A stretch of 64,000 nt of DNA from Zygnema cylindricum. Taxonomy: Eukaryota > Streptophyta > Zygnematophyceae > Zygnematales > Zygnemataceae. The stretch covers positions 62,001 to 126,000 of the forward strand of contig JBBHKE010001112.1 of the NCBI GenBank assembly GCA_037447655.1, in the 5' to 3' direction. Below the pieces are notes generated by a model. The model was given only the letters and a program-made list of their open reading frames with translations, was not told the origin of the DNA and did no database searches. Each line of letters starts with the position of its first letter. Positions within the stretch are counted from its first letter, which is position 1. A program made the translations under genes and the position numbers. Positions 3,840 through 34,707 of this stretch are shown here, piece after piece.

Positions 3840-3849
3840 CTCCCTTTAA
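3840..3849 (-). other. Copia A polypurine tract
   Basis: On the minus strand a purine run (AAAGGGAG) ends exactly at the LTR start. This is where plus-strand DNA synthesis is primed in LTR elements. The position fixes the LTR start as TATTG. Confidence 0.7.
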
Positions 3850-3861
3850 GCTTTAGAAGAC

Positions 3862-4505
3862 TTACTCACTTAGACCACATTCTTTTCTGCAGTACTCCAA
3901 CCTAGGAGCAGGAAGGGCTTTTGTCAACATGTCCGCAACCATTTTCTCATCAAGCAAATAACAAAGTTTGACCACTTTTGCAAAAACTTTCTCTCGTACC
4001 AAATGTAGACGAATGTCCATATGTTTACTCTGAAAATGGTGACTTGTGTTTGTAGCCACAGAAATGGCTGCTTGATTGTTGCACCACATTATTTGTGTCC
4101 CGTGTTGTGTAAAACCCAATTCTTGAAGAAATGCCTTAATCCATAGCAGCTCTTTCAAGGCTGCACTCGCAGCCATGTATTCAGCTTCCATAGTCGATTA
4201 TGCCGTGACCTTTTGAAGTTTACTACTCCAACTACAAATTCCACTTCCAATTTGAATGACATACCCAGTTGTAGACTTCCTACTAGGCACATCACCATAG
4301 CTAGCATCACTCCAATTATTAGTGCCAAGCTTGTCCCCTCCCAAAGTAAGCCAAAGATTTCTAGTCCTAACAAAATATCTTAAGACCCTTTTTTTTGCTT
4401 CCCAATCTCTCTTTCGTGGATTTTGCAGACTTCTGCTCAACACACCAACAGCTGCAGCTATATCGGGACTAATACAATTCATGAGGTAAATCAAACTTCC
4501 CATTC
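3862..4505 (-). pseudogene. Copia A RNase H domain
   Basis: Two open pieces (4198-4503, then 3862-4191) give the copia RNase H: the MGSLIYLMN entry motif, WSDASYGD, the STMEAEYMA motif and DNQ-like NNQAAI. The pieces are split by one TAA exactly where the near-invariant Gln of the AQSTMEAEY motif belongs, which is a CAA to TAA transition. It ends with the family's CGLSE-type C-terminus just before the polypurine tract. It would degrade the RNA template during reverse transcription. Confidence 0.85.
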
Positions 4506-5245
4506 CTTTCTCTAGGGTTCTGCACTGAGTTCCTCATCCATTATGACTCCTAACTAATGCTCCATTCTTTCAAGTTTTTACTTATCCTCCATAGGAGTTT
4601 CACAACTTTTGGCATCAGCCAAGCCAATTTTTTCCAACATGTTTCCTATTGCTTCTTTTTGAGTTAGCCAAATTATTTTCTTTTCTCTATCTCTTTCAAC
4701 CTGTATGCCAAGAATGTATTTAGCCTCACCCAAATCATTCATTTCAAATTTTGAATTAAGAGCGTGTTTTACTCTATCAATTTCTTCTTTGTTCCTACTA
4801 ATTAGCAGCAAATCATCAACATACACAGTAATGAATATCACCTCATTAGGATTATCACCACACATCACGTATACTGAATGATTTGAACTAATTGTAGTAA
4901 ATCCTAATCCTGTCAAGAACTCATCTAACTTTTAGTGACATTGCCTAGGGGCCTGTTTTAGGCTATATAAAGATTTTAAAAGTCTGCACACAGGATTTTC
5001 TTTCCGTGCTTCCTCATAACCCTCTAGTTGCTTCATATAAATGACCTCATCTAAATCACCATGCAAAAATGTAGTTTTGACATCCATTTGGTGGATGTCA
5101 AAATCCTTTATGGCAGCTAATGTAAGTAAGATGTGGAAAGATGGAAACCTTACAACTGCTGAAAAAGTTTCTTCTGAACCTATCCCCTCGTTTTGATTAT
5201 ATCCTTTAGCAACCAAGCGAGCCTTACACTTGTCTATGGTATTAT
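4506..5245 (-). pseudogene. Copia A reverse transcriptase
   Basis: Open pieces at 4932-5216 and 4578-4916 carry the RT core: [33 protein letters not shown] and the catalytic TVYVDDLLLIS (YVDD intact). Stops separate the pieces. Downstream of YVDD at about 4500-4580 three stops fall in a row at codons that read Gln in an undamaged frame. A frameshift then leads to RNase H. The typical copia order integrase-RT-RNase H is kept. Confidence 0.88.
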
Positions 5246-5958
5246 CTGGGTTCTATTTTAATTTAAACACCCATTTACTTCTAATAGCTTTTCTTCTTGG
5301 ACGAAGTTCCACTAGATCCCATGTTTGGGCCTCCATGTTGGACTTCATTTCTTCATTTACTGCTTCCACCCAGTGTTCCCTTTCATTACTCGAAAAAGCT
5401 TCCGTCAACGTTAGAGTTTCTTCTGTTTGTGCTGAGTGAGCAAAGGCTGCACTTTCTCCCCTGAGACTTGCACTTCGCCTAACTCCACCTGGAAATTTTA
5501 TCGCTGGTATAGATGGTTAGGTCCTCCTCCTTGATACATGTGATTCTTCTTGTGATTCAGTTTCAGCTTGAGGTAGAGGAGAGTTTGCAACTTTTTCGGG
5601 CATAACACTTGTTGTTTTTGGTGGAGAAGATGATTGCAAGTCACTTTGAGTTGATGTAGATGCGTTTTCTATATTTTTCTTGAAAAACATAGGATTTTTC
5701 TCTAAAAAGATATAATCAACATTTCTATTTTTCTTTTCATTTGTACGCTGACTAAATACATCTACTCTTTTTCCCTCATCCTTGACTATGATGTTTGTGG
5801 CTACCACAACTCTATTTCTCTTAATGTCATATACTTTATAACCCTTGGCATGACCATCATACCCTAAAAATATCCCTAGTATGCCTTTTGGCTCTAATTT
5901 CCATTTTTGTGGATCATTATCTAGCATGAATATCTTACTTCCAAAAACTTTGAAGTGA
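5246..5958 (-). pseudogene. Copia A integrase C-terminal part and linker to RT
   Basis: The open frame 5517-5987 begins with the HKPDVSHFKVFGSK motif and GYDGHAKGYKVYD, the region C-terminal to the copia integrase core. It then runs into an acidic/Ser-rich linker. From 5516 to 5246 the frame toward RT is broken. The linker is variable among copies in this window. Confidence 0.75.
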
Positions 5959-6444
5959 CTTACATCTGGTTTGTGTCCTGTCCACATTTCATAAGGAGTT
6001 TATCCTTTACTACCCTTGTTTTTAGCCTGTTTCTCGCATAAGTTGCACAATGCATAGCCTCTGCCCAAAATTTTAAATCTATGCCCATATCAGCCATTAT
6101 TGTCCTACCACACTCTGATATGGTACTATTCATCCTCTCTGAAACACCATTTTGTTCCGGAGAATAAGGAACGGTTAGTTGACGTGAGATTTTATGAAAT
6201 TTTAGGAATTCTGCAAACTCATTAGAAATGTACTCCCCTCCATTTTCAGATTTGAATCCCGCTATCTTTCTCTCATGTAGATTCTCAACCCAAGCCTTAT
6301 ACTCCTTAAATTTTGAAAAGACTTCATCCTTACTTCTCAAAAAATAAACTGTAGTTAATCTGCTATAGTCATCAGTAAAGGTAAGCATAAACTTAGCACC
6401 TCCCACAGATGGATACCTAGATGGCCCCCATACATCTGAATAAA
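5959..6444 (-). pseudogene. Copia A integrase core
   Basis: The frame 5960-6406 shows the rve core. The first catalytic Asp lies just upstream in a shifted frame (YSDVWGP near 6430). The second catalytic position reads SENGGEY, Glu instead of the usual Asp (SDNGGEY). The third catalytic Glu is intact (PEQNGVSERMN). A frameshift and stop at about 6440 separate the first motif from the rest. Integrase would insert the cDNA into chromosomal DNA. Confidence 0.85.
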
Positions 6445-7251
6445 TTAGTTATACCCTGCTAATTCTATGATCAGTTTTGGAAGGGAATGCAACTTATGAA
6501 TTTTTCCCATTGCACAACCATCACATACATTCGAAGTTGGTTTTTGATTAATTTTTACACCTTCCACCATTTTTTGATTTACCATCTTTTCTAATCTATC
6601 ATAATTCACATGTCCTAAATGTTTATGCCATAAATCACAATCACTGATTACATTTGAGTACATAACATCATTGTCATTATCATTTGCAAGACTCAATCGA
6701 TACAAATTGTTTCCTCCAGCAAATCCCTCTACAGCTATTTTCCCATTCTTACTCATTGTTTTCTTTCCATTCTCATATATAGTTTTAAAACCTTTCTTTT
6801 CTACCACTAACGTAGAGAAAAAGTTTCTTTTAAAAGTTGAGACATGCAAAACATCTTCCAAGACCCTTTTCACAGGTTTTCCCTCTACGTTCAACATAAG
6901 TGACACCCTCCCCTTTGCTTTCGACTCAACAAAGGTATCATCACTAAAATATATTTTGATGGGTGAAATAGATTGAATACTCTGAAACAGATGGCAATTG
7001 CGGCACATGTGTGCAGATGCACCGGAGTCCATTACCCATTCGTCTTCCTCCACGCCTTCCGTTGCTTGTGCCATCACAAAGTATTTCTTTTTCGCTGTTG
7101 TCGCAAAAGTTGCACACGTCCCCCTTCGAAGTTTGTTGAAAAGAGCAGTTGGTCGACCACCTGATTGACAAGGAACCTGACGTTCATCCCATCCAGAGCG
7201 AAAATTTCTTCTGGCTTTCGCTCTCCTATATGCATTACACATTTTGAACAC
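6445..7251 (-). pseudogene. Copia A protease and GAG-pre-integrase region
   Basis: A 268-residue open frame. The N-terminal part holds a damaged zinc knuckle (Cys-x4-His-x4-Cys remains and the first Cys is missing). The aspartic protease motif WVMDSGASAHMC follows at about residues 75-90. The GAG-pre-integrase zinc region LWHKHLGHVNYDRL...CDGCAMGK follows. The protease would cut the polyprotein. The frame ends at a stop before the integrase core. Confidence 0.88.
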
Positions 7252-7914
7252 ATGCCTTTTTTCATCACAGTAATAGTAGGTTAAAGGTGACCTTCTATGA
7301 CCACCACCTCTACCACTGCCACTACTAATCTTAGAATCTGAAAACTAGTTAGCTAGTGCCTGAACAGACTTACTACTACCTCTTTGTGAAATCTGGATAG
7401 CTTTTTCACTCAAAATAAGTTGAATTGCTAATGCTATGTACTATTGAAGCTGTGGAAGAGCCCTAAGCCTATCCATGGCTCCCTTATACTCATTGGGTAA
7501 AGTTCTGATCAATAACATAGCCTGCTGAGGTGGTGAAAAGTGCCCACCTGCAATTGTACTTTGAGGGAACAACCTTTTCATAGCATGGCAATGATCTGAC
7601 ATACTACCTCCAGAATATCTAAATTCAAAGATTTATGTTGCTATATTAGTCTGAACAGTGACATCAAGCTAAACATACATAGCATGTACATTAAACCAGA
7701 TTTGAGAAGCCTTTTTCATATCAAGGTAAGACATTACCAACTCCTTTGTCATAGACTGATTTAAGACATTGAGGCAATGGAGATTCTTCTTTCTCGAATC
7801 CGGTGCAGTCTCATCCACAATGGATGACAAGTCTCTCTCTTCAAAATAGAAGCTCAGAATATCTTCCCAGTAAAAGTAGTCCTATCCTTCAAAGATAGGC
7901 AATTTGGACGGTAA
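7252..7914 (-). pseudogene. Copia A gag
   Basis: Read on the minus strand from the primer site, one frame gives a copia gag with about five in-frame stops. It includes YWEDILSFYFEERDLSS, a segment with SYLDMKKASQIWF, and LLIRTLPNEYKGAMD near the end. Each stop is TAG or TAA where a Gln codon would fit, again a C-to-T pattern. It would form the particle shell. Confidence 0.75.
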
Positions 7915-7924
7915 GCCCATAACC
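7915..7924 (-). other. Copia A primer-binding site (half initiator tRNA-Met type)
   Basis: Directly inside the 5' LTR the minus strand reads GGTTATGGGC. This is complementary to the anticodon loop of initiator tRNA-Met (GCCCAUAACC) and not to a tRNA 3' end. Drosophila copia is known to use the same kind of internal, cleaved tRNA primer. Copia B has a longer match at 19741-19755. Confidence 0.75.
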
Positions 7925-8612
7925 TGTTGAAGGTCATGGGCATTTAGACAAGGGTTGGATCCACTCCCACTACGAGTCACACTTGCACCAACTAGGATAT
8001 TCCTCCCTAGAGGAGCAGGTGGAGCACTTGGGCTAATAGGAGCACTTGCAGCAAGAGCTGAGCCATTATCAAACATGTTAGCGGAAGAAAACCCAAAGAG
8101 GAATACCTATTAAACTAGATCAACACTGTAAGATATGTAACTATAAATGAAATAGGTCTTTCAACCAAACAAACATGTACTACAAGCAAATCAAAGACAA
8201 TAGAGCACAAAACACCTTAAACTGTACTTTGTGCTCTCATTTCCTTAAACTCTATGTAGAATGTACATTCTGTATCGAATTGATCAATCCTAATTGAAAT
8301 AAATACTAAAAAGATGTAGAAAACATCTAAAACGTATGTACAGGGTTCACATGACAACGTATTGACAAAAATCTAAGCGTTTAGACCACAATTGTCCACT
8401 AACAATATATGTATCCTAAAAATCCGGCTGATTCTTATCACGTCCACATTCATTGGCGGCCTTGCACACTAATTTACTTAAAGATAATTATTCGTGTAGA
8501 TACTACAAAAATTCCACACTAAATTTGGTCAATATTGAAGAGTTGGTACTCCAAAAATATTCTAAGTCCTCGACTCAAATATCTTAGACTTACTAAAGCT
8601 TACTTTTCAATA
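7925..8612 (-). repeat. Copia A 5' LTR, contains the gag start codon
   Basis: It is 688 bp. The right edge (8612) is set by the target duplication, the left edge by CAACA next to the primer site. The minus-strand ATG at 8076-8074 opens a frame that runs through the LTR edge (about 51 codons, Ser/Ala/Pro-rich, ending NAHDLQQ) and in frame through the primer site into gag. The double hairpin seen in the other copia LTRs is not evident here. Confidence 0.85.
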
Positions 8613-9184
8613 GGATCCACACCTATTAGAGTAGCAACTGCTTCTGGAGGAGGACACGGTTCCGTTTCCGAGGAAAAGGATACAGAAGTCATCTCCTCGG
8701 CTCAGTTTTACAGTCCAACTAGGCCTTCCTCTTCACATTTCACCAATTTTGTAGAGGAAGAAAAGAAAATGGGGGACATCCGGATCTTTACCAGAGATAG
8801 CTCAGGGATCGCATTTTCAGACTTCGAGTTGTTGCGGAAATCTTTCACACAATCCGAAATTAATAAGTACAGGGGAGGAGCCATTTCGGATGACTTCGAG
8901 ACAACCCTCTTCCACATGATGGTCAAGTACTTTTCTGGAGGGGCATTGGCAGATTACAAGGAGCGTCAACCTCTTTTGATGGCTCCTAGCATTAAGGTAG
9001 CGGATCCATCCCTTGATGCGACAGTCGTGCAAGCGGAGGCTGACTTAGCGGCAGCGGCTACAACCTTTGTAACCGCTACCTTCACACAGAACATGAAACT
9101 GGAGGCACAAGGAAGTGCTTATGTTAACCAGCTGCAAGCCATTCACGGAGCTGAGGCAACAAATTGCATGGTTGCTAATCCAAA
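8613..9184 (+). pseudogene. G1 gag, capsid core part 1
   Basis: This is the continuation of G1 gag after Copia A. The open frame 8535-9236 begins in Copia A LTR and ends in the solo LTR, so only this part is real. Motifs such as FSGGALADYKERQPLL and ADLAAAATTF align with G2 (GGALSNYMERKTALTAP, ADLEATIRQ). This shows a shared gag family. It resumes at 10200 past the solo LTR. The opposite-strand frames 8708-9032 are shadows. Confidence 0.8.
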
Positions 9185-10199
9185 TGCAATTCTGTGTCCT
9201 CCATTTGACTACAGAATACAAGAAGCCTCTAGATAGTTGTTAACTAGCCCACTTTAACCCACAGCCACTGCTGCCCAAAAAGTCACACTGACAATTTGAC
9301 TACACCCCTGTGTAGCTTGGACTCCTGTGAGTCTGTAGCAAAAAAAAATCACTGAAGCCGATAAGTTATGAGGCAGTAAAAAATGCCAATTTGTACAAAC
9401 TCTCAAAAGGAGAGGTGACTGCATACCAAAATTTTATAAGTCTTGATTTCCTCTAATAACTTCTATCTACCGAATTACGGACCAATCAGATTAGTGTACC
9501 GTACCAAAAAGGTACTACTGCCGGTGTACCTTTTGTACGGCCTATGTATGACAGGACTATTAAGCGGACGCGTGTCTCCTTTTCACTCATCCGTACATTC
9601 CTCGGAATTCCTATGACCGAATGTCATCTCTCCACGTGGCTCCATGTCATGCCATATCACTAAACGCCAAAGTGACTACTCCGGGATATCGGCGATGATG
9701 TGCGCCGTTGGATTTGCAGCGAGACGCAATCTTGGCCGTAATAAATACTTGCGCGATATTTGTTTAGTTGTCGAAACAAAATGCGTGGTATCCGTTTTGA
9801 ATTTGTACATTTATAAAACTGTATCCATGTACGCTGTACACAGTTTTTGTTAAATGGATTTGCTCCTTCCTAAATATATATATATCTATCACATACAATA
9901 GCATTTAGCATTGGTCTTAGTCTAGAAGGATAAAGCTGACCACTATCGGCTAGCTTGACGAACTGCAGGTGCCGGGATCAAATCCCGAGTCCGTCAGGTA
10001 TATTTTTAGTAGCCTTAAAAATATCAACTTGTTGAACTAAGGCAGGCATAGATCAACCACTCTCTCTATCGTTCAGTGACTACAACAAGTATGGGGGCTA
10101 GAGAGAGGAGGTGTAGGTAGGCTGTCTGTCCTTTTTCTTTTTCTTTAATACTAACATTTAAAACCTAGAAAATACTCAAGAAATCTATTAATTTCAACA
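9185..10199 (-). repeat. Solo copia LTR inserted in G1 gag
   Basis: It is 1015 bp with perfect TSD CCAAA (9180-9184 and 10200-10204). The left end is TGCAATTC and the right end TTTCAACA, so it is minus oriented. It includes the gag-start codon near the left end, the paired hairpins with the CTACAC-AGGG-GTGTAG arm (about 9295-9340), and an antisense tRNA-like module at 9925-10002. It is closely related to the LTR at 45787-46824. It probably formed by LTR-LTR recombination that deleted the internal region. Confidence 0.93.
9925..10007 (+). other. tRNA-like module antisense to the LTR
   Basis: The T-arm-like hairpin CCGGG-ATCAAAT-CCCGA lies at about 9973-9990. It is enclosed by an outer stem TGACG/CGTCA and followed by TTTTT (10003-10007). 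GGATCAAATCC resembles a Pol III B box. Related modules occur in at least seven other LTRs in this window, always antisense to the element. Confidence 0.5.
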
Positions 10200-11279
10200 C
10201 CAAACCCTTGTACTACTCTACTGAACATCTGGAGAATCCTCTACACAGAGAGGAACGAGTCTGCAATCAAGGAATTCACAAATTTCCGATGCTTGAAGAA
10301 CGAGACTCCTTCGACTCTCTTCAACCGACTTTCAAGCCTTTGTCAAAAAACGAAATTGTCCACAACTCACCTTCCAGCAATGGCAACTAAATAATTTATC
10401 ACTGTCCGTAATTTATTCCGACCGACAGGGTAGACTGCTTTAGATAAGTGGATTGTCAGACAGGTGATTCAATACATTAATCCCTCCGCCAAGGACATTT
10501 CGCTGGTGGCAATGAAATTGTCTGATCAACTTCGTCCAAAGTGAGGCAAGGGAGAAGGCTGTGACCGGCAAGGCCTGCGTAAATTTTGCACGATTCGCCG
10601 GGGAGACATCCTTGAGCGAGGAGGAAAAGGCTGAACTTAAAAATTTGCGGAAGCTCAAAGGGAAGCAAGTGGCTGATAGCGGGTCATAACCGGCAATGGG
10701 AGCAGAGGATAGAGTTTTCCTTTACAATTGCCTAAATTGTCAGCAATCCGGTCATGGGTGAAAGCACTGCACAAGGAAACTTAAAGCGGAGCTGGCCTTG
10801 AAGCTAAAGGAATGGGAAAATGAACGTGCAAAAAGGACCTTGAAACAGAAATAAAATCTCAAGGGAGGGAAGGGAGAGGACACGTCCCTCGTAACCAAAG
10901 ATACATACCGTCCCACTTCACAGAGCGAAACCTCTAAGATGTCCCAAACTCAGTTGCCGCAAATCAAAATTCTAAAGTTTGACGACGCTCTAATCTACAA
11001 CGAGATCCGGAGTAAATATACCACCGAGGGTGCCAAGTGCGAAGCTTGTGGAATTATAGGGCACAAGGAAGGTCAATGTTTCCGAAAAAATGGAGTACCC
11101 AAGGAAATAATGCAATTTGCTTTGTTTACTGGTGAAGGAGAAACAACCGTTAACCCTCTCCCACTCACACTTCTTTACCCTTGGGGGCGCCAACTTATAT
11201 CCACGTCGGAGAGACATGAGCGAGCCCCGGATGCTCTGGCTAGGCTTACGCCGCAGATCATCATACAGCAACAGAGTTA
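10200..11279 (+). pseudogene. G1 gag C-terminal part with two CCHC zinc knuckles
   Basis: The frame resumes after the solo LTR with a segment (CTTLL.IW...YTERNES) that aligns to G2 at 43000-43060. Two knuckles follow: 10729-10770 (C-x2-C-x4-H-x4-C, one codon now TGA) and 11038-11079 (CEACGIIGHKEGQC, intact). The knuckles would bind element RNA during packaging. The open frame 10939-11280 covers the second knuckle. Having two separated knuckles is shared with G2. Confidence 0.85.
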
Positions 11280-12208
11280 GCAGCTGGCCAGAATGACTGC
11301 AGAGTTGGCTGCACTCCGCTTGGGATTTTCTTCTTGGCCTGTTCTTCTCACAACAGCAGAACGACTCCAAAAGAAAAAATAGGAGTTGTAACAGAAGATC
11401 GCGGAGCTTGAGCTTGAAGGCACAGCGGGTGCTAACGATGACAACTTATTGGGCTGTGATTTGGAACCCCCAAATGCCCATTATGCCCAAACCTCTTGTT
11501 TGGAGCTTGGAATGTTGGGGTGGGAGACAGCCGCTGCCAACTCCGCATTTCCACCTCGATGCAAAGATAAGACAGATAAAAAATGGGTCAGAGGGATCAC
11601 AACCGGAAAGCTATAGGGCCTTTGTCATTTACTCCCAGAGCACTAATGATGAACAAGGACATCGGCTTAGGAATCAAACCCAATCACCCACCATCTCTTT
11701 CTCCTAAACCTAAATTGCCTCCTGGTTTCAAAAATTACTAGAACGAGAAACAACAGTAAGAGAAGGAGTCACTAGAACGAGGGAAAAAGGACAATCAAGA
11801 CTGGTTTGAGAAATATATGGCAGTACGCCCGGAGAATGACACTCCCCAAACACCTCTAATCCCAGATTTCGGCTCCCGGAGTTAGAAAAAAGAACAACAT
11901 CAGGATCTGCATAAACCGAACTCAAAAACGGCTGTCATGCTAGTTCGACACCTCATGCAATATGCCCTCACACACGTGAAGACTCTAGCATTCTCCAACA
12001 ACTTGCTCAAAGAAATCCTCATTCATGCATTGGGAGAGGAGATCCACTCTGGAAAAGGAGGAGTCAACAGGACCACTCTGCCAACCACAGTCATTTTGTC
12101 CACCGATCCGAAAACCCGTAGAGTGGATAGGGACTACAAGGCCTTATCAGTGGCTATTATACAAAACCGAACTTCAAGCTCAACGGGTACGGGGGATACC
12201 ACGACCTT
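11280..12208 (+). pseudogene. G1 gag-pol junction, decayed
   Basis: Short frames here are Gln/Arg/Lys-rich, with a hint of a coiled region at 11280-11420. G2 has a similar charged stretch after its second knuckle (44030-44220). From about 11937 a frame leads toward the protease. The corresponding part of G2 also has DYSSLAVAYI-like residues before its protease, matching DYKALSVAII here. I see no other gene. Confidence 0.55.
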
Positions 12209-12742
12209 GTGGTTGACACCGGAGCGCTCCCCAACCTTATCACCACCTCCGCTTTGCAGAAAATGCTCGAGGAACTCTGGCCCGAAATTTTCCCAAGCAA
12301 TAGCTACGTAAGCATCGTAAGCAGCGGCTGCCAACAAGTCCATGGAATAATAAAAGCCATGAAAATCGAGTTTTCTAATGACGGAGGCCAACGGGTGAAA
12401 ATTGAGCCTCCCTTCTTTGTGGTGGAAGGGACTCAATTCAAAATTGTGTTGGGAATGGCCACTTGGACGCGGCTCAATATGAGTTTGAGCGTGTGGAACG
12501 AACAATGTACCATTCGAGACCGTGGAAATCCGGAAGGAACCAAAGTGGTGGTTTCTTTGGATTTATGGAACCGGGGGAAGGCAAATGATCAGTGTTTGGT
12601 TTACTTCCGGTGTACACTACATCATTCCGACATAACTGTTTGGCACTTCTACACATATCGCCAAAGAAATCTAGCAATTCCCAATTTCCAAGCGGTGGGA
12701 AGAGGAATATTAGAATAGATTATTGCAAGTAGCAAAACTACG
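12209..12742 (+). pseudogene. G1 retropepsin-like protease
   Basis: The 169-residue open frame starts at the active site VDTGALPNLITTSALQKM (Asp-Thr-Gly). It continues with a beta-rich stretch (FKIVLGMATWTRL), as in gypsy retropepsins. G2 has the matching MVDTGAIFNLISTSALEKL. The protease matures the Gag-Pol polyprotein. The frame is the same as the following methyltransferase, with a single stop (about 12716) between them. Confidence 0.85.
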
Positions 12743-13870
12743 GTGGGGGTGCATAAGGCATTTTTGGCTTTAACATCGAAGGAAGCTGTTTCTACACCAC
12801 TGTCTAATGCTTCCAAACCTAAGTCCGGTAACAAGGAGTTCAATCAACAAGTGGTCTCATTAGCAGTTCCTGATTCCGGATTGTGTATATTATCTCTATT
12901 TTCGAGAATTAGTTCCGATTTGGAAGCGGTTTTGAAGACAGGATACCTGGTGGAGTCATATGCAGCCGTGGAAATATCACCCGAGGCGTAGGCTGTCAGC
13001 GATAACCGCCTCCATCAACTTCATCACCTATATCCTCAACATTTTCTAGTGACAGCCTTTTTCAACGCTCACCGAAGTCTTCCCCAAAATGTAGAAAACA
13101 TCATTGCGCACTATCTAGCCAGTTTGAGAAGAGTTGATTTGGTGTTGGCAAGTTGGCCTTGTTAGGGATTCTTCCTAGCGGGACAAAGAAAAGGGCATAA
13201 AGATCGCAAAAGTGGAACATTTTACCGGATGATCGAATTAATTACGTGGCTTCAACAACTCCAAAACACACTGGTGGGGTACGTTCTAGAACATGTCAAC
13301 TCGGGAGATGATAAAAGGAAACAGGTTGCAGACAGTTGGAATCACGTAACCCGAATTTTAGGAGCTCCCTTGGTTTTCGACGCCGCACAGATGGGATACT
13401 GTGCACACAGAGTAAGGGCATATTGGACTAATATGATCGCGTTTCCAGTACTTCGACGACTGTTGGACAAGCAAATCCCCAACTTGCATAATTCAGTGCA
13501 AAAAATAATTGGGGAATGCAGGATGGCCACCCTTGTGACGCGACCAGACCGCTCTCTTTTCTTTCGGTGCAACAAACCGGGATTACCACGGAGAGCACTC
13601 CCGCCTTTGGTTTCTTCCCCTCACAGTCACGCTTATCGAAAAGGAGCAGTGGAAATGATTTTTGACAGTAAGTTGGGAATCTTGACAACACTGATGATTG
13701 CAAAACGAGAAGAAGCGATGGGATTTCATAAAGGCACCAAAATAACACCAGGTATTTCAGACCTTCAGTGGTGCAGCCTTATTGGGTAGAGTATGGATTT
13801 GAATTCGATCACATGGGTACTCAAGCATGCACTCGCCTTTTCCATTCTCAAGTCCACAGAATCCTGAGTT
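12743..13870 (+). pseudogene. G1 C5 cytosine-specific DNA methyltransferase domain in pol
   Basis: It would transfer methyl groups from S-adenosylmethionine to cytosine C5. One frame holds the motifs in canonical order. Motif I is LCILSLFSRISSDLEAV then AAVEIS (about 12881-12980). Motif IV is DLVLASWPC (about 13139-13162) with the catalytic Cys intact. Motif VI is YVLEHVN (about 13280). Motif VIII is CAHRVRAYWTN (about 13400-13435). Motif IX is REEAMGF (about 13708) and motif X is SLIG followed by SMDLNSI (about 13778). Canonical order resembles Dnmt3-type rather than the rearranged plant DRM order; this is inference. In-frame stops are TAG 12989, TAG 13163 (at the Gln of PCQ), TAG 13787 and TGA near 13865. 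It is preceded in frame by protease and followed in frame by RT. The region after motif VIII is probably the target-recognition part. Confidence 0.88.
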
Positions 13871-14723
13871 GTTTACCTTCAAGCTCCTCAGTTATTAGCG
13901 ATGCAAGCAACTTTGCAACTTGAGGGGGGGGGGAGAAAGGAGAAGAAAAATTCACATTTCACCACAGCAAGTTTTCCCAGTGGGTGGGGGGCGGCGGCTC
14001 AGATGGCGAAAACCTAGCAAAAGTTGTCAACAGTAGCATCCTAGCCGGAGGAGTAAAGGCGGATCCACTCGTAGGATTGGAATTTGACATTAACCTCTGG
14101 GGTAGACTGCCAGAGGCTTAGGCTGCTGTAGAGCTTTGGAAAATGGATTGGACACTTGGGGAGTAGTTGGATCCACAACAGAAGGCGCGGCTCTCTGAGC
14201 TATTTGTCGAAAAACAAGCAGGTGTTTACATGGTCAAACACATATATCAGTATTTACAAAGGAACACTTTTTCGAATCGATTTGATCGACGAGGCAGCTA
14301 CTGTTTGGTAGAAGCAGTATCCTCTCATTTTCAAGGAAAACGAATTCATCACAGCTAAAGTAGAGACTTTGGTGGAAGCCGGATTAGTTCATGAAAGTAT
14401 AAGACTTCATGGGTTCGCTTTCCCGAGAGTTCTCCCTCCCAAAAATGACTCGTCCGGGAAGACTGTAGATTACCAGATGTGTGGAGATTATTACATGCTG
14501 AACACGGCCACCATCTGTGACTGGTATCGGATGCCGACCATGGAAGAGACATTCGACTCTCTTGTTGGCGCCACTACCTACTCTACTCTGGACATGAAGA
14601 ATGGTTTCCACCAGATTGCTATAAAACCGAAACATAGAGAGAGAATTGCATTTTGGGCTGATTCCACACACTATGAATGGATATACATTCCCTTTAGACT
14701 TAAGAATGCACCGGCATAATTCC
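13871..14723 (+). pseudogene. G1 reverse transcriptase, N-terminal half
   Basis: After a G-rich stretch (13923-13932) the gypsy RT begins. It carries FRIDLIDEA around 14270, then in the frame 14369-14719 VEAGLVHESIR, the VDYQMCGDYYMLN motif, STLDMKNGFHQIAI with the first catalytic Asp, and YIPFRLKNAPA. Copia B cuts the gene after the NAPA motif. The TSD ATTCC duplicates 14719-14723. The frame agrees with protease and methyltransferase. Confidence 0.9.
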
Positions 14724-15781
14724 TATAACTCTGAGACCTCCATAAGTCCTTAGAGTGGACAGCTTCCAAGAAGCCTCTAGGATAACCGTGACCCCTTTGT
14801 GTTTCAGCAAAAATAACTGCCACCCTAACAGACAAAAACTCTGACGAACTTGATCCCTGTGAAGACAAGACTCCCCTGAGTCGATAGCAAAAAGAATCTC
14901 TGAATTTGCTCCCCTGAACAGTAAGTTATGGAGGGTCAAAGTTGACCTTTTGTACTGAAGCTCTCTGGGAGAGAGGGTCCTATCTTCTAATTTTTCTAAG
15001 TCCTATCTCTCTCACAGACTCTATCTACTGATGTACGGAGCTAATCAGATTTCAGTTTCGTACACAAAAATACAGCTGCCGATGTACTTTATGTACGGCC
15101 ATTGTATGACATGGCTTAAAAGTCGACATGTGGTATGTCCAGATTCGCTCCCTTAATCCTCGGAGATGCCGCGATCCAATGTCATTCCGCCACGTGTCAT
15201 TCGATGTGGCGATGACAAAAAACCGCCGAAATCCTCTTCCGGGATCTGGGCGTTAATTTTGGCCGTCCGATTAAATTCACATTTAATCGCAGCCGTAATA
15301 AATACATGCGCGGTATTCGTTTCACTAAAAAATTAAATGCGCATTATTGGTTTCTTATCCGTACCGGAATCCGTACTTTTACATTTACTGGATATATGTC
15401 TCTCGTAAGCAGTTACAGTTAAATGAACTATCCTACGTATAAATGTTTAAGTAATTATCAAACCATATATTACATAACACTACTCCTAGACTTAACGGCT
15501 AAGGCTACCGGCTACTTGCTGTCTGCTGGCCGGCAGGTACCAGGATCAAATCCTGTCGCCGGTAAATATCTTTTAGTAAAATAAACCCCTAACTAAAATA
15601 TATTTTCCCGTAAACCTCTGGATAGCCTAGGTAGCCATGGCTCTAGCTCCTTCTCCAATTTCTTAGTGACAGCGACAAGTTTGAGAAGTTCGAGTGAGAA
15701 GTTAGAGATAGACTGCCTTGGCTTCTTTCTTATTTCTATTCAGACCTAGAAAATACTTTAAAAAGACCATTAATTTCTACA
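14724..15781 (-). repeat. Copia B 3' LTR
   Basis: It is 1058 bp. Its minus-strand start TGTAGAAATT abuts the polypurine tract AAATAAGGGGAG (15782-15795). The far end has mutated from TTTCA to TTATA. It carries the AGGG hairpins (about 14860-14890; second stem damaged) and the antisense tRNA-like module (15490-15574). It differs from its partner mainly in the U5 end. Confidence 0.92.
15490..15574 (+). other. tRNA-like module antisense to Copia B 3' LTR
   Basis: It has a D-arm-like GGCTAAGG, a T-arm-like AGGATCAAATCCT (B box-like GGATCAAATCC at 15543-15553), an outer stem CCGGC/GCCGG and a TTTT run at 15571. The outer stem sequence differs from the 9925 copy but still pairs. The sister copy lies at 20523-20606. 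Confidence 0.5.
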
Positions 15782-15798
15782 CTCCCCTTATTTTCTAG

Positions 15799-16068
15799 TC
15801 AATCTTTAATTTCAGACCACACTTTTCCCTGCAGTACACTTTTCCTCATCGGAGCATCACCATAACTGGCATCACTCCAAGTAGTGATGTCAGTATTCTC
15901 CCCACCCAAATGCAACCATAGATCCCTAGTTCCTATCAAGTATCTAAGAACACTCTTAGCTGCCTCCCAATCCTTCTTAGTGGGAGCATTTAGACTTCTA
16001 CTCAGCAGTCCTACAGCTGCAGCTAAATCCGGCCGGGTACAATTCATAAAATAGATTAGACTTCCCAC
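15799..16068 (-). pseudogene. Copia B RNase H, internally deleted
   Basis: It starts with MGSLIYFMNCTRPDL and reaches WSDASYGDAPMRKS. It then jumps to the out-of-frame remains of the element's last codons (the nucleotides of the family's YCREKCGLK C-terminus read in another frame). Compared with Copia F about 110 codons are missing, including the AEYMA and DNQ catalytic parts. RNase H would be inactive. Confidence 0.85.
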
Positions 16069-17372
16069 TACTTGCCTGTGTAAGGAATAGTCTGCATGAA
16101 CTTATGTTCTTCAGGAGATAATTCCTCGTCTAAGACTATGACTCCTCCTTCCTCACTCCCCTCCCTTCCTTTCTTCAACTCCATTGGAGTTGTACAACTA
16201 TTAGCTTTATCCATTTGAAATTTTTCAAGCATGTTCCCTATTGCTTCCTTTTGAGTCAATCTTATAATTTTTCTTTTTCGGTCTCTCTCTACTTGAATTC
16301 CCAAAATATATTTTGCTTCCCCCATATCCTTCATTTGAAATCTCCCCTTAAGATCGGTTTTCAGTTTATTAATTTTTTCCATTGATTTACTTAAAACAAG
16401 CAAATCATCAACATAAATTGCAATAAATATAAAACCTTCCTCATCTTCGAAAACATAGATTGAGTGATATGAGCTGATCCGAATATATCCTAGACCGGTA
16501 AGAAACTCATCAAGCTTCTTATTCCACTGTCGCGCATGTTTCAAACCATAGAGAGATTTAATCAGCCGGCATACCTTACTCTCCTCTCCTTCCTCCACAA
16601 ACCCTCCGGGTTGTCGCATGAAGATCTCCTCTTCCAATTCTCCATGCAAAAAGGCTGTCTTGATGTCCATCTGGTGCACTTCCATGTCTTCCGCTGCTGC
16701 CAAGCTGAGAAGTATGCGGACGGAGGGAAATCTGACCACCGGGGCAAAGGTTTCCTCGTAGTCAATTCCCTCTTTTTGTGTAAATCCCTTTGCCACTAAT
16801 CGGGCTTTGTAGCACTCAATTGTGTTATCTGGGTTCAGTTTTAATTTAAAAACCCACTTACAACCGATTGGTTTTCGGTTAGGTGGACAATCCACTGGCT
16901 TCCAAGTATCAGCTGCCATAATTGAGGCCATCTCCTCATTGATGGTTGTCTTCCACCGGTTTCTTTCTGTACAAGTCATCGCCTCTCCATAAGTTTGAGG
17001 TTCATCTTGATGAGATAGTTTAGTTACCTTGTTATTAACCTGTTTTTCTTGTAGTCTTTTGCTACTTCTCCTTCCCCCCTCAAAATCTGAGGTCGGAATA
17101 GATGGTTCTCGTGGATTCTTTCGAACAAACTCGGCTTTTCCCCTATCCCTTAATTCCGAATCAATTTCCACCACGTCTTCCGCTTCCGGTAGAGTTGTCA
17201 CTGGAGTTTCCACAGCCGAGTCCTTTTCGGTCTGATTTGTACCTGCAAGAATGTCATCTTCTCTAAAACCCAGATAGTTAGGGAGCTCAAAGTCATCGGA
17301 ATTTTGTGACTCAAATCTGATTTTTACTGACTTTGTATATTTGAAGGGATCCACAGACTTTCCTTCATCCAT
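16068..17372 (-). pseudogene. Copia B reverse transcriptase with N-terminal linker
   Basis: This is the longest open frame in the window (434 residues). Residues 1-150 are an acidic linker continuing from the integrase C-terminus. From about residue 165 the RT core reads [69 protein letters not shown] and the catalytic IAIYVDDLLVLS, then KEAIGNMLEKF. A 2-bp insertion at about 16066 breaks the join to RNase H. The RT core itself looks intact. Confidence 0.92.
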
Positions 17373-18230
17373 AACTACTAGATGCTTTACTAAGATTATG
17401 TCTTCTCTTTTTAGATCATAAACTCTATATCTTTTAACATCCTTATCTTATCCTAATAAGTATCCCGGTTTTCCCTTAGGATCTAACTTCCAATTAGACC
17501 GATATGTATCTAGACTGAATACTTGACTGCCGAAAAACCTTTAAGTGAGATAAGTTTGGTCCTGGCCTTTCCATCTCTCATAAGGTGTTTGATCTTATAT
17601 AGCTGAAGTAAGAACTCAGTTTTTGAGGTAGTTAGCACAGTTCTTTGCTTCCGCCCAAAACCTTTTTCCTATCTTCTTATCCGACAACATACTTCTAGCA
17701 CTATCACTTAGTGTTCTATTTAACCTTTCAGCTACCCTATTCTGTTCCGGGTTTTCTAGAACTGTCTTTTGGTGTTGGACCCCATCTTCTCTCAAAAAAT
17801 CCTCAAACTGGTTAGAAGTATACTCTCCACCATTCTCACTCCTTATTCTCTTGATTGGAGTTTCATGAAGTTTTTCACTCAATGCTTTTTATTGTCTAAA
17901 ACAATCCTGAGCTTCGGACTTGCTTTTCAAAAAATACACTCGGTAATATCGAGACCAATCATCAGTGATAGTCATCATAAATCTCTTCCCCCCCGGTGAG
18001 GGCATTTTAGCTGGTCCCCAAATATCTGTGTGTACTAGATCTAGAATTTTTTCTCCCTTATAGGTGGCTGTTTTAGGAAAGGGTAATTTGTGAGTTTTAC
18101 CTTGAGCACATCCACTACAATCACTTATATTATCATTCTCACTAAACTTAATCCCTTCCACCACTCCCATCTTTTTCATCTTTCTTAACTTGTCTAGATT
18201 CACATGCCCAAGCCTCTTATGCCACATCAT
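17373..18230 (-). pseudogene. Copia B integrase
   Basis: Pieces in 17616-17882, in the N-terminal part of 17889-18497 and in broken sequence to 17373. The first catalytic Asp is present (DLVHTDIWGP). The second position reads SENGGEY, Glu for Asp. The third Glu is present (PEQNRVAERLN). One TAA near 17883 lies where a Tyr is expected. Further stops follow in the C-terminal KVFGS region. It would carry out strand transfer. Confidence 0.87.
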
Positions 18231-18640
18231 TATATCATGAACACCAGCATAATAAAGTTTCTTCTTTTCATTACTTAAAACCAGCCTAAACATCCCATGG
18301 CTACCTTTCTCAGCAATGAAATAGACATCCTCTTCAAAACTAGCAGTAAAGACTCCTTCATTAGTGCTTGTAAAAAAACCCTTATCATCTAATACGGATG
18401 TACAGATGAGGTTTTTGTTCAGCTCTGGAATAAACAATACATCGGAGAATGTTACTATGGATGTCTTTCCTTCTACTAACACTTTCAAATCTACCAATCC
18501 TACAAGAGTAGTGGTGACTATCCTTCCATCCCCGTACTCTAGCTCTACGGTGGGAATATTTCTTATCTAAGTGAACAAGTGCCTATCCTTACACATGTGC
18601 ATGGAGGCACCTGAATCTACAATCCAGCCCGCTTCACCTT
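18231..18640 (-). pseudogene. Copia B protease and GAG-pre-integrase region
   Basis: WIVDSGASMHMC (protease active site) lies near 18585-18625, one stop before the main frame. The frame 17889-18497 then gives the LVDLKVLVEGKTSIVTFSDVL stretch and the zinc region MWHKRLGHVNLDKL...CSGCAQGKTHKLPF. This matches Copia F 36409-36960 closely. The intact DSG triad contrasts with Copia F. Confidence 0.87.
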
Positions 18641-18770
18641 TCAATCCACCGTAAGCACATTTCTGCCTTCGTGGTATTTTGACCTCGTTTATCACCTCCA
18701 ACTCGTCATCGAAAAGGAGCTCATTGTCCTCGTCCTCTTATTCCGCCTCATGTACCTGTGTCACAAGGGC

Positions 18771-19755
18771 CTATTTCTTTCCTCTCGGGGTACCACCGGT
18801 CTGCCCCTCTTTTAACCGAAGCTTGGTTAGCTTAGTGCACTCTGCCATATAGTGCCCAGGTTTCTTACAAAAATGACATAAACCTTTGGGAGCCTTTGGT
18901 CCGAACTCGTCGGTCTGATTTTTCTGCTCCCTCCCCCCATAGTTTCCGACCGGTTTTCGAGAATCCTTGTTCCTCCAATCGGTCGCAGTTGCCAAGGCTT
19001 GGCCACTCTTTCCTCCTCTTCAGATCTCAATTGTATTCTCTCGAACGAGAATCATCCCTACCACTGAGTTCCATATCCACCTTGAGTCCAGCAAGTCCTG
19101 CACACGGTTGACTATGTTTTTGAACTCATCGGGTAACTTTATCAGTAAACAGTTAACCTTTTCTTTTTCACTAAAATATTTTTACGCACTCTCTAGCTCC
19201 ATGAAGAGTGTAGCAAGCTCATTGCAAAAATCCAACATCTTCCCCCCTTTGTATATATACTCCTTAACTTTCTTATCAGCCAACTGTTGTTGCTGAATCG
19301 TACCACTTCGGTACATCTCTATGAGAGCCATCGAAAGATCGGATGCCCTCTCTACCTGCAAATGAGGACATGCAAGTCCTTGAGTGAGATGGCGTAGGAT
19401 GAAGTGCTTTGGCGCCATATTGTTGAAGTCCCAGGTTTCAGTATCATTCTCATCGTTCCTCAGAATAGGTGATATAAATGCCGAACTAGTTGTTATTGGT
19501 GTGATCGCCTCCTTCTCCTTTCCTTTGTCCACCACCTCTCCTTCTTTTGTTTCCTCCGTTGAAGGTGGATCCTCTTTTCTGGTGAATCTGCTTCCTCCAA
19601 ACCCTGGAGGAATTCCAAGACTTGATGGATGCCCCAACCGTCCACTCACTATCCCCCAAAACCTTTTTTCGCATAGAGCTCCTATCATCATACTTTCCCA
19701 GTATATGAAGCTAGTTCCATTAAAGATTGGTACCCTAGAGGGTGGGCCCATAACC
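18771..19755 (-). pseudogene. Copia B gag with zinc knuckle
   Basis: The frame 19182-19775 carries the gag core: VPIFNGTSFIYWESMMIGAL, HFILRHLTQGLACPHLQ, YRSGTIQQQQLADKKV and GGKMLDFCNELATLF. A second frame (18771-18995) holds the knuckle CHFCKKPGHYMAEC. Between them the frame is broken. Gag forms the particle and the knuckle binds RNA. The reading frame starts 20 nt inside the 5' LTR (see 19756-19775). Confidence 0.88.
19741..19755 (-). other. Copia B primer-binding site matching the initiator tRNA-Met anticodon arm
   Basis: The minus strand reads GGTTATGGGCCCACC immediately inside the LTR. Its complement, GGTGGGCCCATAACC, equals the anticodon arm of plant initiator tRNA-Met as I remember it. 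All 15 nt fit. This implies priming by a cleaved 5' half of the tRNA, as in Drosophila copia. The usual plant site starts TGGTATCAGAG and is absent. Confidence 0.85.
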
Positions 19756-20813
19756 TGAAACTCTGAGACCTCCATAAGTCCTCAGAGTGGACAGCTTCCA
19801 AGAAGCCTCTAGGATAACCCTGACCCCTTTGTGTTTCAGCAAAAATAATTGCCACCCTGGCAGACAAAAACTCTGACCAACTTCACCCCTGTCAAGACAA
19901 GACTCCCTTGAGTCGATAGCAAAAAGAATCTCTGAATTTGCTCCCCTGAAAAGTAACTTATAGAGGGTCAAAGTTGACCTTTTGTATAGAATCTCTCTGG
20001 GAGAGAAGGTCCTATCTTCTAATTTTTCTAAGTTCTATCTCTCTCACAAACTCTATCTATTGATGTACGGAGCCAATCAGATTTCAGTTTTGTACACAAA
20101 AGTACAGCTGCCGGTGTATTTTATGTACGACCATTGTACGGCATGGCCTAAATGTCGACACGTGGTATGTCCGGATTCGCTCCCTTAATCCTCGGAGATG
20201 CCGCGATCCAATGTCATTCCGCCACCTGTCATTCGATGTGGCGATGACCACAAACCGCCGAAATCCTCTTCCGCGATCTCGGCGTTAATTTCGCCCATCC
20301 GATTAAATTCACATTTAATCGCAGCCGTAATAAATACATGCGCGGTATTCGTTTCACTAAAAAATTAAATGCGCATTATTGGTTTCTTATCCGTACTGGA
20401 ATCCGTACTTTTACATTTACTGGATATATGTCTCCCGTAAGCAGTTACAGTTAAATGAACTATCCTACGTATAAATGTTTAAGTAATTATCAAACCATAT
20501 AGTACATAACACTACTCCTATACTTATTGGCTAAGGCTACCGGCTACTGGCTGTCTGCCAGCCGGCAGGTACCAAAATCAAATCCTGTCGCCGGTACATA
20601 TCTTTTAGTAAATTAAACCCCTAACTAAAATATATTTTCCTGTAAACCTCTGGATAGCCTAGGTAGCCATGGCTCTAGCTCCTTCTCAAATTTCTCAGTG
20701 TCTGCGACAAGTTTGAAAAGTTGGAGAGAGAAGTTAGAGATAGACTGCCTCGGCTTCTTTCTTATTTCTAAATAGACCTAGAAAATACTTTAAAAAGACC
20801 ATTTATTCCTACA
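19756..20813 (-). repeat. Copia B 5' LTR with gag start codon
   Basis: It is 1058 bp. The minus-strand end ...TTTCA sits next to the primer site. The gag ATG is at 19775-19773, so the first seven residues (MEVSEFQ) are LTR-encoded and the frame continues into the primer site (VMGPP). AGGG hairpins are at about 19885-19920 and the antisense tRNA-like module at 20523-20606. A TATA-like site lies on the minus strand upstream of the hairpins. Confidence 0.92.
20523..20606 (+). other. tRNA-like module antisense to Copia B 5' LTR
   Basis: It has a GGCTAAGG D-arm-like part. An anticodon-arm-like hairpin CTGG-CTGTCTG-CCAG follows, with a 7-nt loop and T at the position of U33. A CCGGC/GCCGG stem and a TTTT run at 20603 follow. 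The B-box part is damaged here. Confidence 0.45.
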
Positions 20814-21828
20814 ATTCCAACGGGCAATGGATGAAGCGCTGCGAGGAATTGACTCTGCCTGGTGCTAAATTGATGATGTTATCATCTTCTCAAAGACTTT
20901 TGAGGAACATCTAGAGCATGTTCAAATCGTTCTCCGGGCACTCCAAGCCGCGGGCTTGAAATGTCACCCGTGCAAAGGTATTTTTGGAGTACAAAAATCA
21001 TTTACCTCGGACATTAGGTGACTCGCGGGATTGTGGGTCCCCACATGGTCAAGGTGGCAGCCCTTGCGCTCTTCCCCCACTGCAGGACATCTCAACCCTT
21101 TGCACATTTCTGGGTCTGGCGAACTACTATCGGCGGTTTATCTCGAGTTAAGTAGTAACAATCATCCCCTTAACCAACTATTGCAGAAGGACAAAGAGTG
21201 GCAGTGCGCCGAGTAACAACAGATATCCTTCCTGTTCTTCATGGATGCTCTAAAGCAGCACCTTTTGCTCCGGACGCCTGATCACCAAATGCCTTTCCTC
21301 CTTTTTAGCGATTGTTGCAAGTTTGGATTGGGAGCAGTTTTCGCTCAAGTCGATGACGTTGGAGCTGAATATGTGGTGGCCTACGCCAGCCGGAGCAACA
21401 ACAGAGCAGAGGGGAATTATAGCAATTACCACGGAGAGTTACTCGCAGCCGTTTTGGCCATCTAGCATTTCCAACCTTATTTGTACGGAGTCCATTTCAC
21501 CTTGATTATGGATCAAGAATCGTTGAAATGGATCATGGAAAATAGTAAGTTAACTGGCAAACTCGCCAGATGGGTTCTCATCCTGCAGGAATATGATTTC
21601 GACGGTGTTCATAAGGCAGGGGAAATCCATGGGAATGTCGACAGACTTACCCGGAATCCTGATCCCTCCACCATGGATTCTACCGGGGCTCGACATGATG
21701 AGGACCCTGAGATCAGTCTGGGGCTCATTCGAGCATCCTTTGCTTTCATCTGGCTTCCCCAATCAATGGGGGAACTGTCAACTTTCTTGGTCGACGTGGA
21801 GGGTCAGGCGCCCATAAGGGCGGGATAG
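20814..21828 (+). pseudogene. G1 reverse transcriptase C-terminal half and RNase H
   Basis: It resumes with FQRAMDEALRG. The catalytic motif reads IDDVIIFS, preceded by TAA where Tyr of YIDD is expected. Frames then shift several times. RNase H follows in 21241-21465 and 21481-21828: SDCCKFGLGAVFAQ, YASRSNNRAEGNYS, HGELLAAVLAI, MDQESLKWIMEN and GNVDRLTRNP. Acidic residues of the active site are mostly recognisable. This is a typical Ty3/gypsy arrangement. Confidence 0.88.
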
Positions 21829-22900
21829 AAAGACATCTAGAACGACCATGATGCTCTCCAATCTATTGAGCAGGGGTCGCCCTTTCCCCACTTAACTGGA
21901 ATTCAATTATCGTGAGTACAGACCTGAATGGCTGCGTATGATTGGGACAGACGCGTTCTCTTTCGAAAATGGGCAGACGACGAAGGAAAGTGGTTCCTCC
22001 CCCCTTTGACAAAGAAGCTCTAAACTTCAATCTCCATCGGCAATGTGGACAATTTGGGCAAAAGCGGACCACTTCCCTGGTTACGGGCTCTTAATGGTGG
22101 CATGGGTTGCAAACCCAAGTGAACCGAATTGTGCAGACTTGCTCCTCATGCAATCAACACAATGCAGCTATTGAGAAAAAGGGCAGGACTGAGCTTCATT
22201 CTCTTCCTATCCGGGGGATGTTTTATCAGTGGTCGTTCGATCTTTAGGGACCTCTTCCGACTAGCAGGCATGGGAACCGCTTTGTGCTGGTCATGATATA
22301 ACATTTTTCCAAGTGGATCGAGTTGGTGGTTTTGCCCCGGAACGAGTCTATGGCAATTACATATGCCTTTTTGCAGAGGGTTTTAGCCCAATTTGGGGTG
22401 CCAGTGGAAGTTCTAACCGACCAAGGCTCTGAATTTGCCAGAGAATTTTCCAACCTCTTCGAAAAATGCCTAGTCAACCATCGGCTAATCAGCCGTGACC
22501 ACCCTCGAGCTGACAGTTTGGTTGAAAGGTGCGTATAGACAGTGAAGCGATCACTACGAAAATATGCAGTTGAAGAAGATTTGGGGGAGTGGGATAGAAA
22601 AGTACCTTTGATTTCTATGGGTTAAAGATTCAGCAGGCAGGCTTCTCTTCGCACCTATAGCCGTTATTTAATTCTATATGGACGGCATCCCATCTTGCCT
22701 GTGGCTACATCGGCCGAAGCGGTTGTCCTCCCGGAGATGGATGCCAAGGGGATAGTCCAAAAACTGATTGCCGATAGAGCCAAGATATTCCACCGAAAGA
22801 TGCCTCTCGCCTTGGGAAATTTGCAAGCGGCTCAACATTGAGATCAGTTGTGGTATTCTCAATGCCAGAGCGAGATTATGTTCCCTAGCAGCTACGATTT
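21829..22900 (+). pseudogene. G1 integrase
   Basis: Broken frames. The zinc-binding region keeps the end of an HHCC finger (TCSSCNQHNA near 22138). The first catalytic Asp is in WSFDL near 22235, the second in VLTDQGSEF near 22425, and the third Glu in SLVERC near 22520. The segment FSKWIELVVLPRNESMAITYAFLQRVLAQFGVPVEV shows the fold. The C-terminal part (22650-22900) reads YGRHPILPVA, as in gypsy integrases. The open frame 22244-22477 on the minus strand is a shadow. Confidence 0.88.
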
Positions 22901-24665: not shown

Positions 24666-24674
24666 TTTTGTCAA

Positions 24675-25720: not shown

Positions 25721-25849
25721 CATTTGCACACTATTTGGGGTCGTTCTTGGTTTCTGTCCGGAGTTATTGCGGGTCAAATTGGAAGACTCGCATTCCCTTC
25801 CCATCCTTTAGGTAGTATTCAGGGGTGTAGCATTTAGTGGGCTTCCGGC

Positions 25850-34510: not shown

Positions 34511-34707
34511 GCTAAGTGTTGTTTTTGAAAACTTAGTTTCGTGCGTACGGAGCGTTTCGTGCGTGCGCGTGTTCGCGTGGGTGCGCATTTACGCGATGTA
34601 GTGTGGAGGTTCGAATTGATTTGCGGATTGGGGGAGTAAATGTACGAAGAAAATTAAATGTACGTGAAGGACTAATTGAGTGGCGCGGAATGCGCAATGT
34701 AAATGGA

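Follow-up and report, generated by a model that had tools for sequence, protein, structure and literature searches.

Why should a retrotransposon encode a C5 cytosine DNA methyltransferase, and is the enzyme a regular part of it? The question is raised by a stretch of 64,000 nucleotides of Zygnema cylindricum (hereafter the window; positions 62,001 to 126,000 of contig JBBHKE010001112.1, C831 in our genome listing, assembly GCA_037447655.1), in which a preliminary description had placed a methyltransferase (MT) between the protease (PR) and the reverse transcriptase (RT) of a Gypsy pol polyprotein. The window element is a dead copy of a Gypsy-type retrotransposon with the MT in this very position. 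It probably belongs to an old lineage of Gypsy domain order whose pol includes a DNMT3-type MT and in many members ends, beyond the integrase, with a PHD finger; for this lineage we infer stop codon readthrough, methylation of the element's own cDNA and PHD-mediated tethering. Direct evidence comes from the domain anatomy, the constant slot of the MT, more than 200 copies of the PR-MT junction, one young complete copy, conserved catalytic residues and dN/dS well below 1 among open copies. Transposons are shut down by their hosts through cytosine methylation. In this lineage an MT is nevertheless retained, with signs of selection and frequently accompanied by a PHD finger, so that a parasite of the genome seems to bear an instrument of the type used against it.

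The motifs of a C5-methyltransferase were expected in a single frame and are present there: motifs I, IV, VI, VIII and IX/X lie in plus-strand frame 2 of the window copy, in the canonical, unrearranged order, with the Glu-Asn of motif VI replaced by Glu-His. With stops read as X, region 12740-13870 gave a sole match in a database of about 5.8 billion proteins (2957 candidates scored, E up to 10), namely protein P0001 (E 4.4e-60, 40% identity, PF00145), so that the significant relation to C5-methyltransferases on which the claim hinged was found. The alignment with P0001 places the decayed, DNMT3-like domain at 12872-13813 (plus strand), with three in-frame stops. The proposed check with PF00145 was passed by relatives rather than by the window MT, which stays below the cut-off (19.7 of 22 bits, E 6e-4) and whose open 207-aa piece (13166-13786), taken alone, has no Pfam match; the MT of the related genome copy L011, 61% identical to it, reaches 48.9 bits.

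Sequence profile and predicted fold both indicate that the MT is DNMT3-like, nearest DNMT3 and not DNMT2. Among the matches listed in the fold comparison, DNMT3 chains rank at the top, followed by 4dkj, HhaI and HaeIII, and DNMT1 and chromomethylase chains do not appear among the matches listed for profile and fold. The circularly permuted motif order of DRM, the plant rearranged DNMT3, is not that of the MT, and DRM2 chains match P0001 over residues 12-139 only, at the C-terminal end of those chains. DNMT3A and DNMT3B share the catalytic fold and the motif order with the MT, from which they differ in sequence (21-28% identity); the MT is encoded by a retroelement, and no ADD or PWWP domain was listed for copies L009 and L011. 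A search of viral contigs with P0001 gave no match, and an alignment-based search of viral sequences yielded 19 loci with 29-52% identity over short stretches only, which were considered as members of the element family and are read instead as ordinary methylases.

The element is far longer than the span first described, extending from a direct repeat at 1-959 (A1, plus strand, which may begin before the window) to its counterpart at 23720-24672 (A2, plus strand). In the self-comparison of the window these repeats are only 88.6% identical, and the insertion is therefore old. Between them, all on the plus strand, lie (i) a gag region in two parts, 8679-9185 (71% DNA identity to L011 1483-1989) and 10200-11692 (67% DNA identity to L011 1984-3451), named by position, as the 716-aa open reading frame of L011 upstream of PR has no Pfam match; (ii) an aspartic protease (retropepsin) region at 12131-12715, with a weak match to Pfam Asp_protease_2 (E 0.19) and 72% identity over 137 residues to the PR region of L011, itself still below the cut-off for this family (E 2.1e-4, 22.3 of 24.3 bits); (iii) the MT; (iv) an RT in two parts, 14360-14723 (RVT_1, E 5.1e-5 and 1.7e-4, below the fragment cut-off bits) and 20814-20976, the region of the IDD box (RVT_1 profile positions 130-188, E 2.5e-5, below the cut-off bits); (v) RNase H at 21280-21594 (PF17917, E 2.1e-29; PF17919, E 2.6e-23); (vi) an integrase with H2C2 zinc-binding domain and rve core at 22029-22502 (PF17921, E 1.9e-8; PF00665, E 3.1e-11); and (vii) the relic of a PHD finger at the C-terminus of pol, approximately 23142-23275, mapped from L011 by DNA alignment, which has no Pfam match itself and draws its support from relatives. 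The order PR-RT-RNase H-integrase, with an rve integrase, is that of Gypsy (Ty3) elements.

The gag region and the RT are each split by a Copia insertion. The RT seems to end at 14723 because a minus-strand Copia retrotransposon of 6.1 kb is nested in it (14724-20813; RVT_2; long terminal repeats (LTRs) 14724-15781 and 19749-20813, 93.3% identical; target site duplication (TSD) ATTCC at 14719-14723 and 20814-20818), and it resumes at 20814. The gag region is interrupted at 9185-10200 by a minus-strand Copia LTR, homologous to other Copia LTRs in the window and not part of the element. Genome copies L011, L012, L022 and L024 are contiguous across the 9185/10200 site and copies L011, L012, L022 and L023 across the 14723/20813 site; since L011, L012 and L022 run uninterrupted at both, these empty sites prove that both are insertions. 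A further Copia-like insertion spans about 3148-8612 (LTRs 93.9% identical). Two stretches considered as LTRs of the element, 9201-10200 and 14.8-15.8 kb, are shown by self-comparison to be Copia LTRs on the opposite strand. The single readable polyprotein assumed at first is thus not preserved in the window, where the MT has three stops, frame shifts are present and the RT is cut by Copia. The core of PR, the MT and the RT do share a nominal frame, as described, whereas the tail of PR, with a UAG at 12672, lies in another frame than the MT, marking a frame-shifted copy.

Whether the MT is a regular component of the element was addressed in the host genome (352.8 Mb). A search with PF00145 gave 782 candidates; 123 were scored, and all 123, which may include host methyltransferase genes, were above the cut-off. 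Twenty of these were taken with the surrounding 10 kb, mainly for their long open frames, and in every one of them PR lies directly upstream of the MT and/or RT directly downstream, which bears out the preliminary claim of a Gypsy pol with an MT captured between the two. By identity to the window MT the copies fall into subfamilies A (58-61%), B (33-35%) and C (44-47%).

An intact copy of the same order, which the preliminary description had proposed to look for, was found in L009 (subfamily B). It encodes PR-MT-RT-RNase H-integrase-PHD in a single frame of 2395 aa, for which Pfam lists a zinc knuckle (E 0.009, weak), PR (E 0.012, weak), DNA_methylase (2e-11), RVT_1, RNase H, H2C2, rve and PHD (1.5e-9). 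Its repeats A1 (85514-86444) and A2 (94981-95911), 931 bp each, are 100% identical, and repeats B1 (94737-94978) and B2 (95912-96154) are 99.6% identical; the ends are TGTC...GACA, with a 4-bp target duplication TTGG on both sides. The identity of the 931-bp repeats and the presence of the target duplication indicate that L009 is young. A pair of equal LTRs, as in Gypsy elements, was not found: despite the TG...CA ends and the TSD, the repeats of L009 are split in a DIRS-like A-coding-B-A-B layout, which is complete in this one copy with its flanks. The same B1-A2 order occurs in L010, and L019 has B1 at 91%; in the window copy A1 and A2 are clear and a possible B1/B2 pair amounts to no more than a 36-bp match of 78%, and L011 has no A1/A2 pair within the stretch fetched. 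Short target duplications are of the kind left by DDE integrases. The DIRS feature, a tyrosine recombinase, is not among the domains that Pfam lists (E up to 0.1) for the frames of L009 and L011. B1 and A2 of L009 are joined by two bases (GC), and we interpret this B-A joint as a trace left by circular or end-joined cDNA. End-to-end direct repeats were also seen within the fetched 10 kb in L015 (99.7%), L016 (100%), L026 (92.7%) and L027 (96.4%), which are probably further young copies.

UAG followed by CAA UUC closes the PR frame of subfamilies A and C, and the MT frame continues in the same register. This stop between PR and MT means that PR, MT and RT of the A and C copies do not form one plain open frame. 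In the window the conserved stop, a proposed readthrough site (UAG CAA UUC CC), lies at 12672-12689 on the plus strand (C831:74672-74689 in the genome listing); the stop at 12716, also considered, is not the conserved one. Both element copies in the window, including the C-type copy described below, keep UAG CAA UUC. Of 27 genome places in the alignment, every one of them reached through a methylase match (18 of 19 newly fetched, and 9 further distinct places from the earlier set), 26 retain UAG and one has UAA, with UAG CAA in 25. The pattern TAGCAATTCCCNATNTCC occurs at 229 genome sites (93 + 136), as against one in the reversed control. Members without MT, named at the outset as a finding that would count against the capture, were looked for in part of this set: at all 16 sites sampled by spacing down a list of roughly 100 places, the MT follows immediately downstream of the UAG motif (once with its first 78 residues only), a count to be read with the fact that the motif itself adjoins the MT. 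The leaky context of tobamoviruses is UAG CAR YYA, which UAG CAA UUC resembles, differing in the last base. One C-type copy has a strong hairpin 3' of this stop (z -4.7).

The PHD finger (PF00628) is well supported in L009; at the C-terminus of L011 it stays below the cut-off (E 0.0044, 17.5 of 24 bits). It is closest in sequence to PHF12 and other chromatin PHD proteins. Chromoviruses are Gypsy elements with a chromodomain after the integrase, and they likewise carry a chromatin-reading type of domain C-terminal of it; in L009 and L011 this place is taken by a PHD finger instead, and no chromodomain was found after the integrase of either at E up to 0.1. One class II relative (P0110; classes defined below) has both a chromodomain (PF00385) and a PHD finger listed.

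Related proteins are found well beyond Zygnema. With P0001 as query, 77 proteins were obtained, itself included, among them MT-only entries of Calypogeia fissa (P0009) and Chlamydomonas eustigma (P0067) and an entry of Sphagnum jensenii (P0071) with a protease-like region and part of an MT; P0071 has no Pfam protease match, and its PR was recognized by resemblance to the genome copies. Comparison of the L011 MT with longer proteins gave 43 relatives, including entries of Marchantia polymorpha (P0080, P0082, P0090 and P0094), Closterium (P0101 and P0117) and Klebsormidium nitens (P0112). A protease-like region stands beside the MT in Marchantia and Sphagnum entries. By domain order in local BLAST, the 43 relatives comprise 19 of class I (PR-MT and/or MT-RT), 22 of class II (RNase H-MT and/or MT-integrase) and 2 with MT only. 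PF00628 is listed in 23 of the 43, namely 21 of the 22 class II proteins and the class I proteins P0086 and P0119.

The two classes form two sides of one branch both in the MT tree (29 rows, support 99/99) and in the RT tree (28 rows, 97/92), and P0112 groups in class I with the window copy. A tree of 99 MT rows, made by a quick method, with 61 rows labelled, 38 unlabelled and several long branches flagged, likewise splits once between 36 class I and 25 class II rows (SH-aLRT 98). Before tree building one near-identical row was dropped from the 29- and 28-row trees and five from the 99-row tree; rows with long branches or odd composition were kept and flagged. Bryophyte rows group with class I, and C. 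eustigma stands among class II rows on a long branch. The named streptophytes of known order are thus class I, and the single named chlorophyte groups with class II; because named entries are few, transfer between lineages may have taken place, and because no outside RT sequences were included, the trees do not show a single gain of the MT. Protein P0005, assigned to a Candidatus Obscuribacterales metagenome-assembled genome, falls among class I rows, for which reason its bacterial assignment is probably contamination; a scan of genome contigs with P0005 found no relative.

A broader proposal, offered tentatively and on balance slightly doubtful, is that a single green-plant retrotransposon lineage with a methylation writer and a histone reader predates the streptophyte/chlorophyte split, with class I in streptophytes and class II in chlorophytes, integrating by a DDE enzyme from split repeats via a circle-like B-A junction and using UAG readthrough in part. 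If this were true, such elements would carry their own epigenetic state to each new site.

What might the MT do for the element? In subfamilies A and C, Gag-PR would be made in bulk, with most ribosomes stopping at the UAG and a minority reading through to MT-RT-RNase H-integrase-PHD, and the readthrough would set the enzyme dose. Packed in the particle with RT, the MT could methylate new element DNA, either cDNA or a fresh insertion, and the new copy would enter methylated, resembling methylated host chromatin. The PHD finger may bind histone H3 tails, steering the integrase as the chromodomain does in chromoviruses. The catalytic residues of the MT are conserved in the family, and judged from coding sequence comparison the domain shows signs of purifying selection: dN/dS is 0.12-0.36 in 10 of 21 pairs, the other 11 being saturated.

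Several observations speak against parts of this proposal. The hairpin is weak in two A-type copies (z -1.05 and -1.25), by column shuffling z is -1.8 for A, where covariation is nearly absent, and -2.2 for C, and L009 has no such UAG, from which it follows that the stop is a trait of subfamilies. Only copies with open frames entered the dN/dS pairs, a choice that biases the ratio downward, and in two pairs the number of changes is very small. Constraint on the MT is weaker than on the RT (dN/dS 0.16 versus 0.02 for L009-L019; in saturated B pairs, dN 0.11-0.17 versus 0.037-0.050). PF00628 occurs in only two of the six class I database proteins that reach the integrase, and it is missing from the Klebsormidium and Closterium entries. 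Finally, motif IV reads GWECQ, with Glu for the usual Pro before the catalytic Cys, in L009, L010, L013-L019 and L026-L028, and GSECQ in L005/L021, the Glu variant being found also in part of the relatives; the GWECQ of subfamily B may alter activity.

A different purpose of the same activity, and the main rival reading, would be self-restraint: by methylating its DNA, the MT would mark the element for silencing by the host, thereby limiting copy number and keeping the host alive. This option was named in de Mendoza 2018 (PMC5890265), where silent KnitGypsy-Dnmt3 copies are described as carrying CHH/CHG methylation, and the window copy differs from L011 by an excess of C>T and G>A changes, both in the MT (119 of 345 changes, 68 in reverse) and in RT-RNase H-integrase (242 of 645, 146 in reverse). 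Such an excess could, however, arise in any silent element that the host methylates, the window copy shows no CpG depletion compared with L011 (observed/expected 0.84 versus 0.70 in the MT, 0.67 versus 0.63 downstream), and more than 200 junction copies together with a very recent insertion do not suggest strong restraint, which makes this explanation an unlikely one. Action of the MT on RNA or RNA:DNA hybrids, or a role as a structural part of the particle, instead of action on integrated DNA, would fit the odd motif IV (WECQ) of subfamily B and part of the relatives, the membership of tRNA enzymes in the DNMT superfamily and the suggestion in the 2018 paper (PMC5890265) that RNA is a substrate of SymbioLINE enzymes. 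We regard it as improbable, given that the MT is nearest DNMT3 and not DNMT2 in profile and fold, and that retrotransposon DNMTs have been demonstrated to perform de novo CG methylation (PMC5890265). Chance insertion of a host DNMT3 gene or pseudogene into this single copy has nothing in its favour except that the window copy is broken, and it can practically be dismissed in view of the constant slot in 20 of 20 fetched copies, of MTs beside retroelement domains in Marchantia, Closterium and Klebsormidium proteins, and of the main split shared by the MT and RT trees.

A lineage that methylates its own new DNA remains our preferred reading, and methylation of cDNA by an element MT was itself proposed in 2018 (PMC5890265). 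The capture of such enzymes by retrotransposons, mentioned in the preliminary description, matches that paper, in which KnitGypsy-Dnmt3 of Klebsormidium nitens is presented with DNMT3 in the Gypsy Pol frame, split repeats and purifying selection. KnitGypsy-Dnmt3 is the closest known system, sharing the unrearranged DNMT3-type MT in Gypsy Pol, the A-coding-B-A-B repeats and, through the K. nitens polyprotein P0112, the class I grouping. What sets the Zygnema family apart is that many members have a PHD finger beyond the integrase, that subfamilies A and C have a conserved UAG separating PR from MT, that junction copies number more than 200, that relatives occur in bryophytes and Closterium, and that TSD and ends could be resolved for one copy. 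The main text of PMC5890265 does not contain the words PHD, Marchantia or protease. In SymbioDIRS-Dnmt3 of Symbiodinium the direct repeats are likewise split and the Pol frame again includes a DNMT3, but this element integrates by a tyrosine recombinase (PMC5890265), whereas here an H2C2/rve integrase and a 4-bp TSD are found; the acquisitions of DNMT by KnitGypsy and SymbioDIRS were judged independent (PMC5890265).

A 2025 paper (PMC12344493) again describes such embedding of the enzyme and speaks of Copia and DIRS families. Gypsy and DIRS elements with a methylase are already attributed to green algae and other groups by a 2019 paper (PMC6338049) that cites others, and wide occurrence is therefore no novelty in itself. 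According to the same paper (PMC6338049), land plants such as tracheophytes do not have methylase-encoding transposons; in bryophytes, relatives of the MT are present, as the entries of Marchantia, Calypogeia and Sphagnum show. In our search of the open-access literature we found no PHD finger beside an MT, no UAG site between PR and MT, no bryophyte, Closterium or Chlamydomonas eustigma members and no class II architecture. With annotated class I relatives in Marchantia polymorpha, the question of why a transposon would methylate DNA becomes testable in a model plant.

The window holds a second, C-type copy of the element on the plus strand, with a PR region in two frames (44877-45255, 45-46% identical to the PR of the first copy), the UAG CAA UUC site (45407-45424) and the N-terminal part of an MT with motif I (45632-45784), cut by a Copia repeat from about 45787. 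Directly 3' of the first copy, 24709-25860 is a further A-type repeat that resembles A1 at about 70% and sequence upstream of L011 (L029) at 80%; it is possibly the start of a second, head-to-tail element. A short RT-like match at 28.6 kb overlaps a copy of a Copia LTR and was not counted. The Copia element at 34696-40635 has the most alike LTR pair seen in the window (96.8% identical). Other features of the window are two overlapping tandem duplications with 45- and 59-bp units (41406-41577), an AT-rich stretch at 58001-60000 (GC 27%, against 36-47% in the other 2-kb steps) with several AT-rich tandem arrays, and a minisatellite of 10.6 copies of a 21-bp unit (61985-62206).
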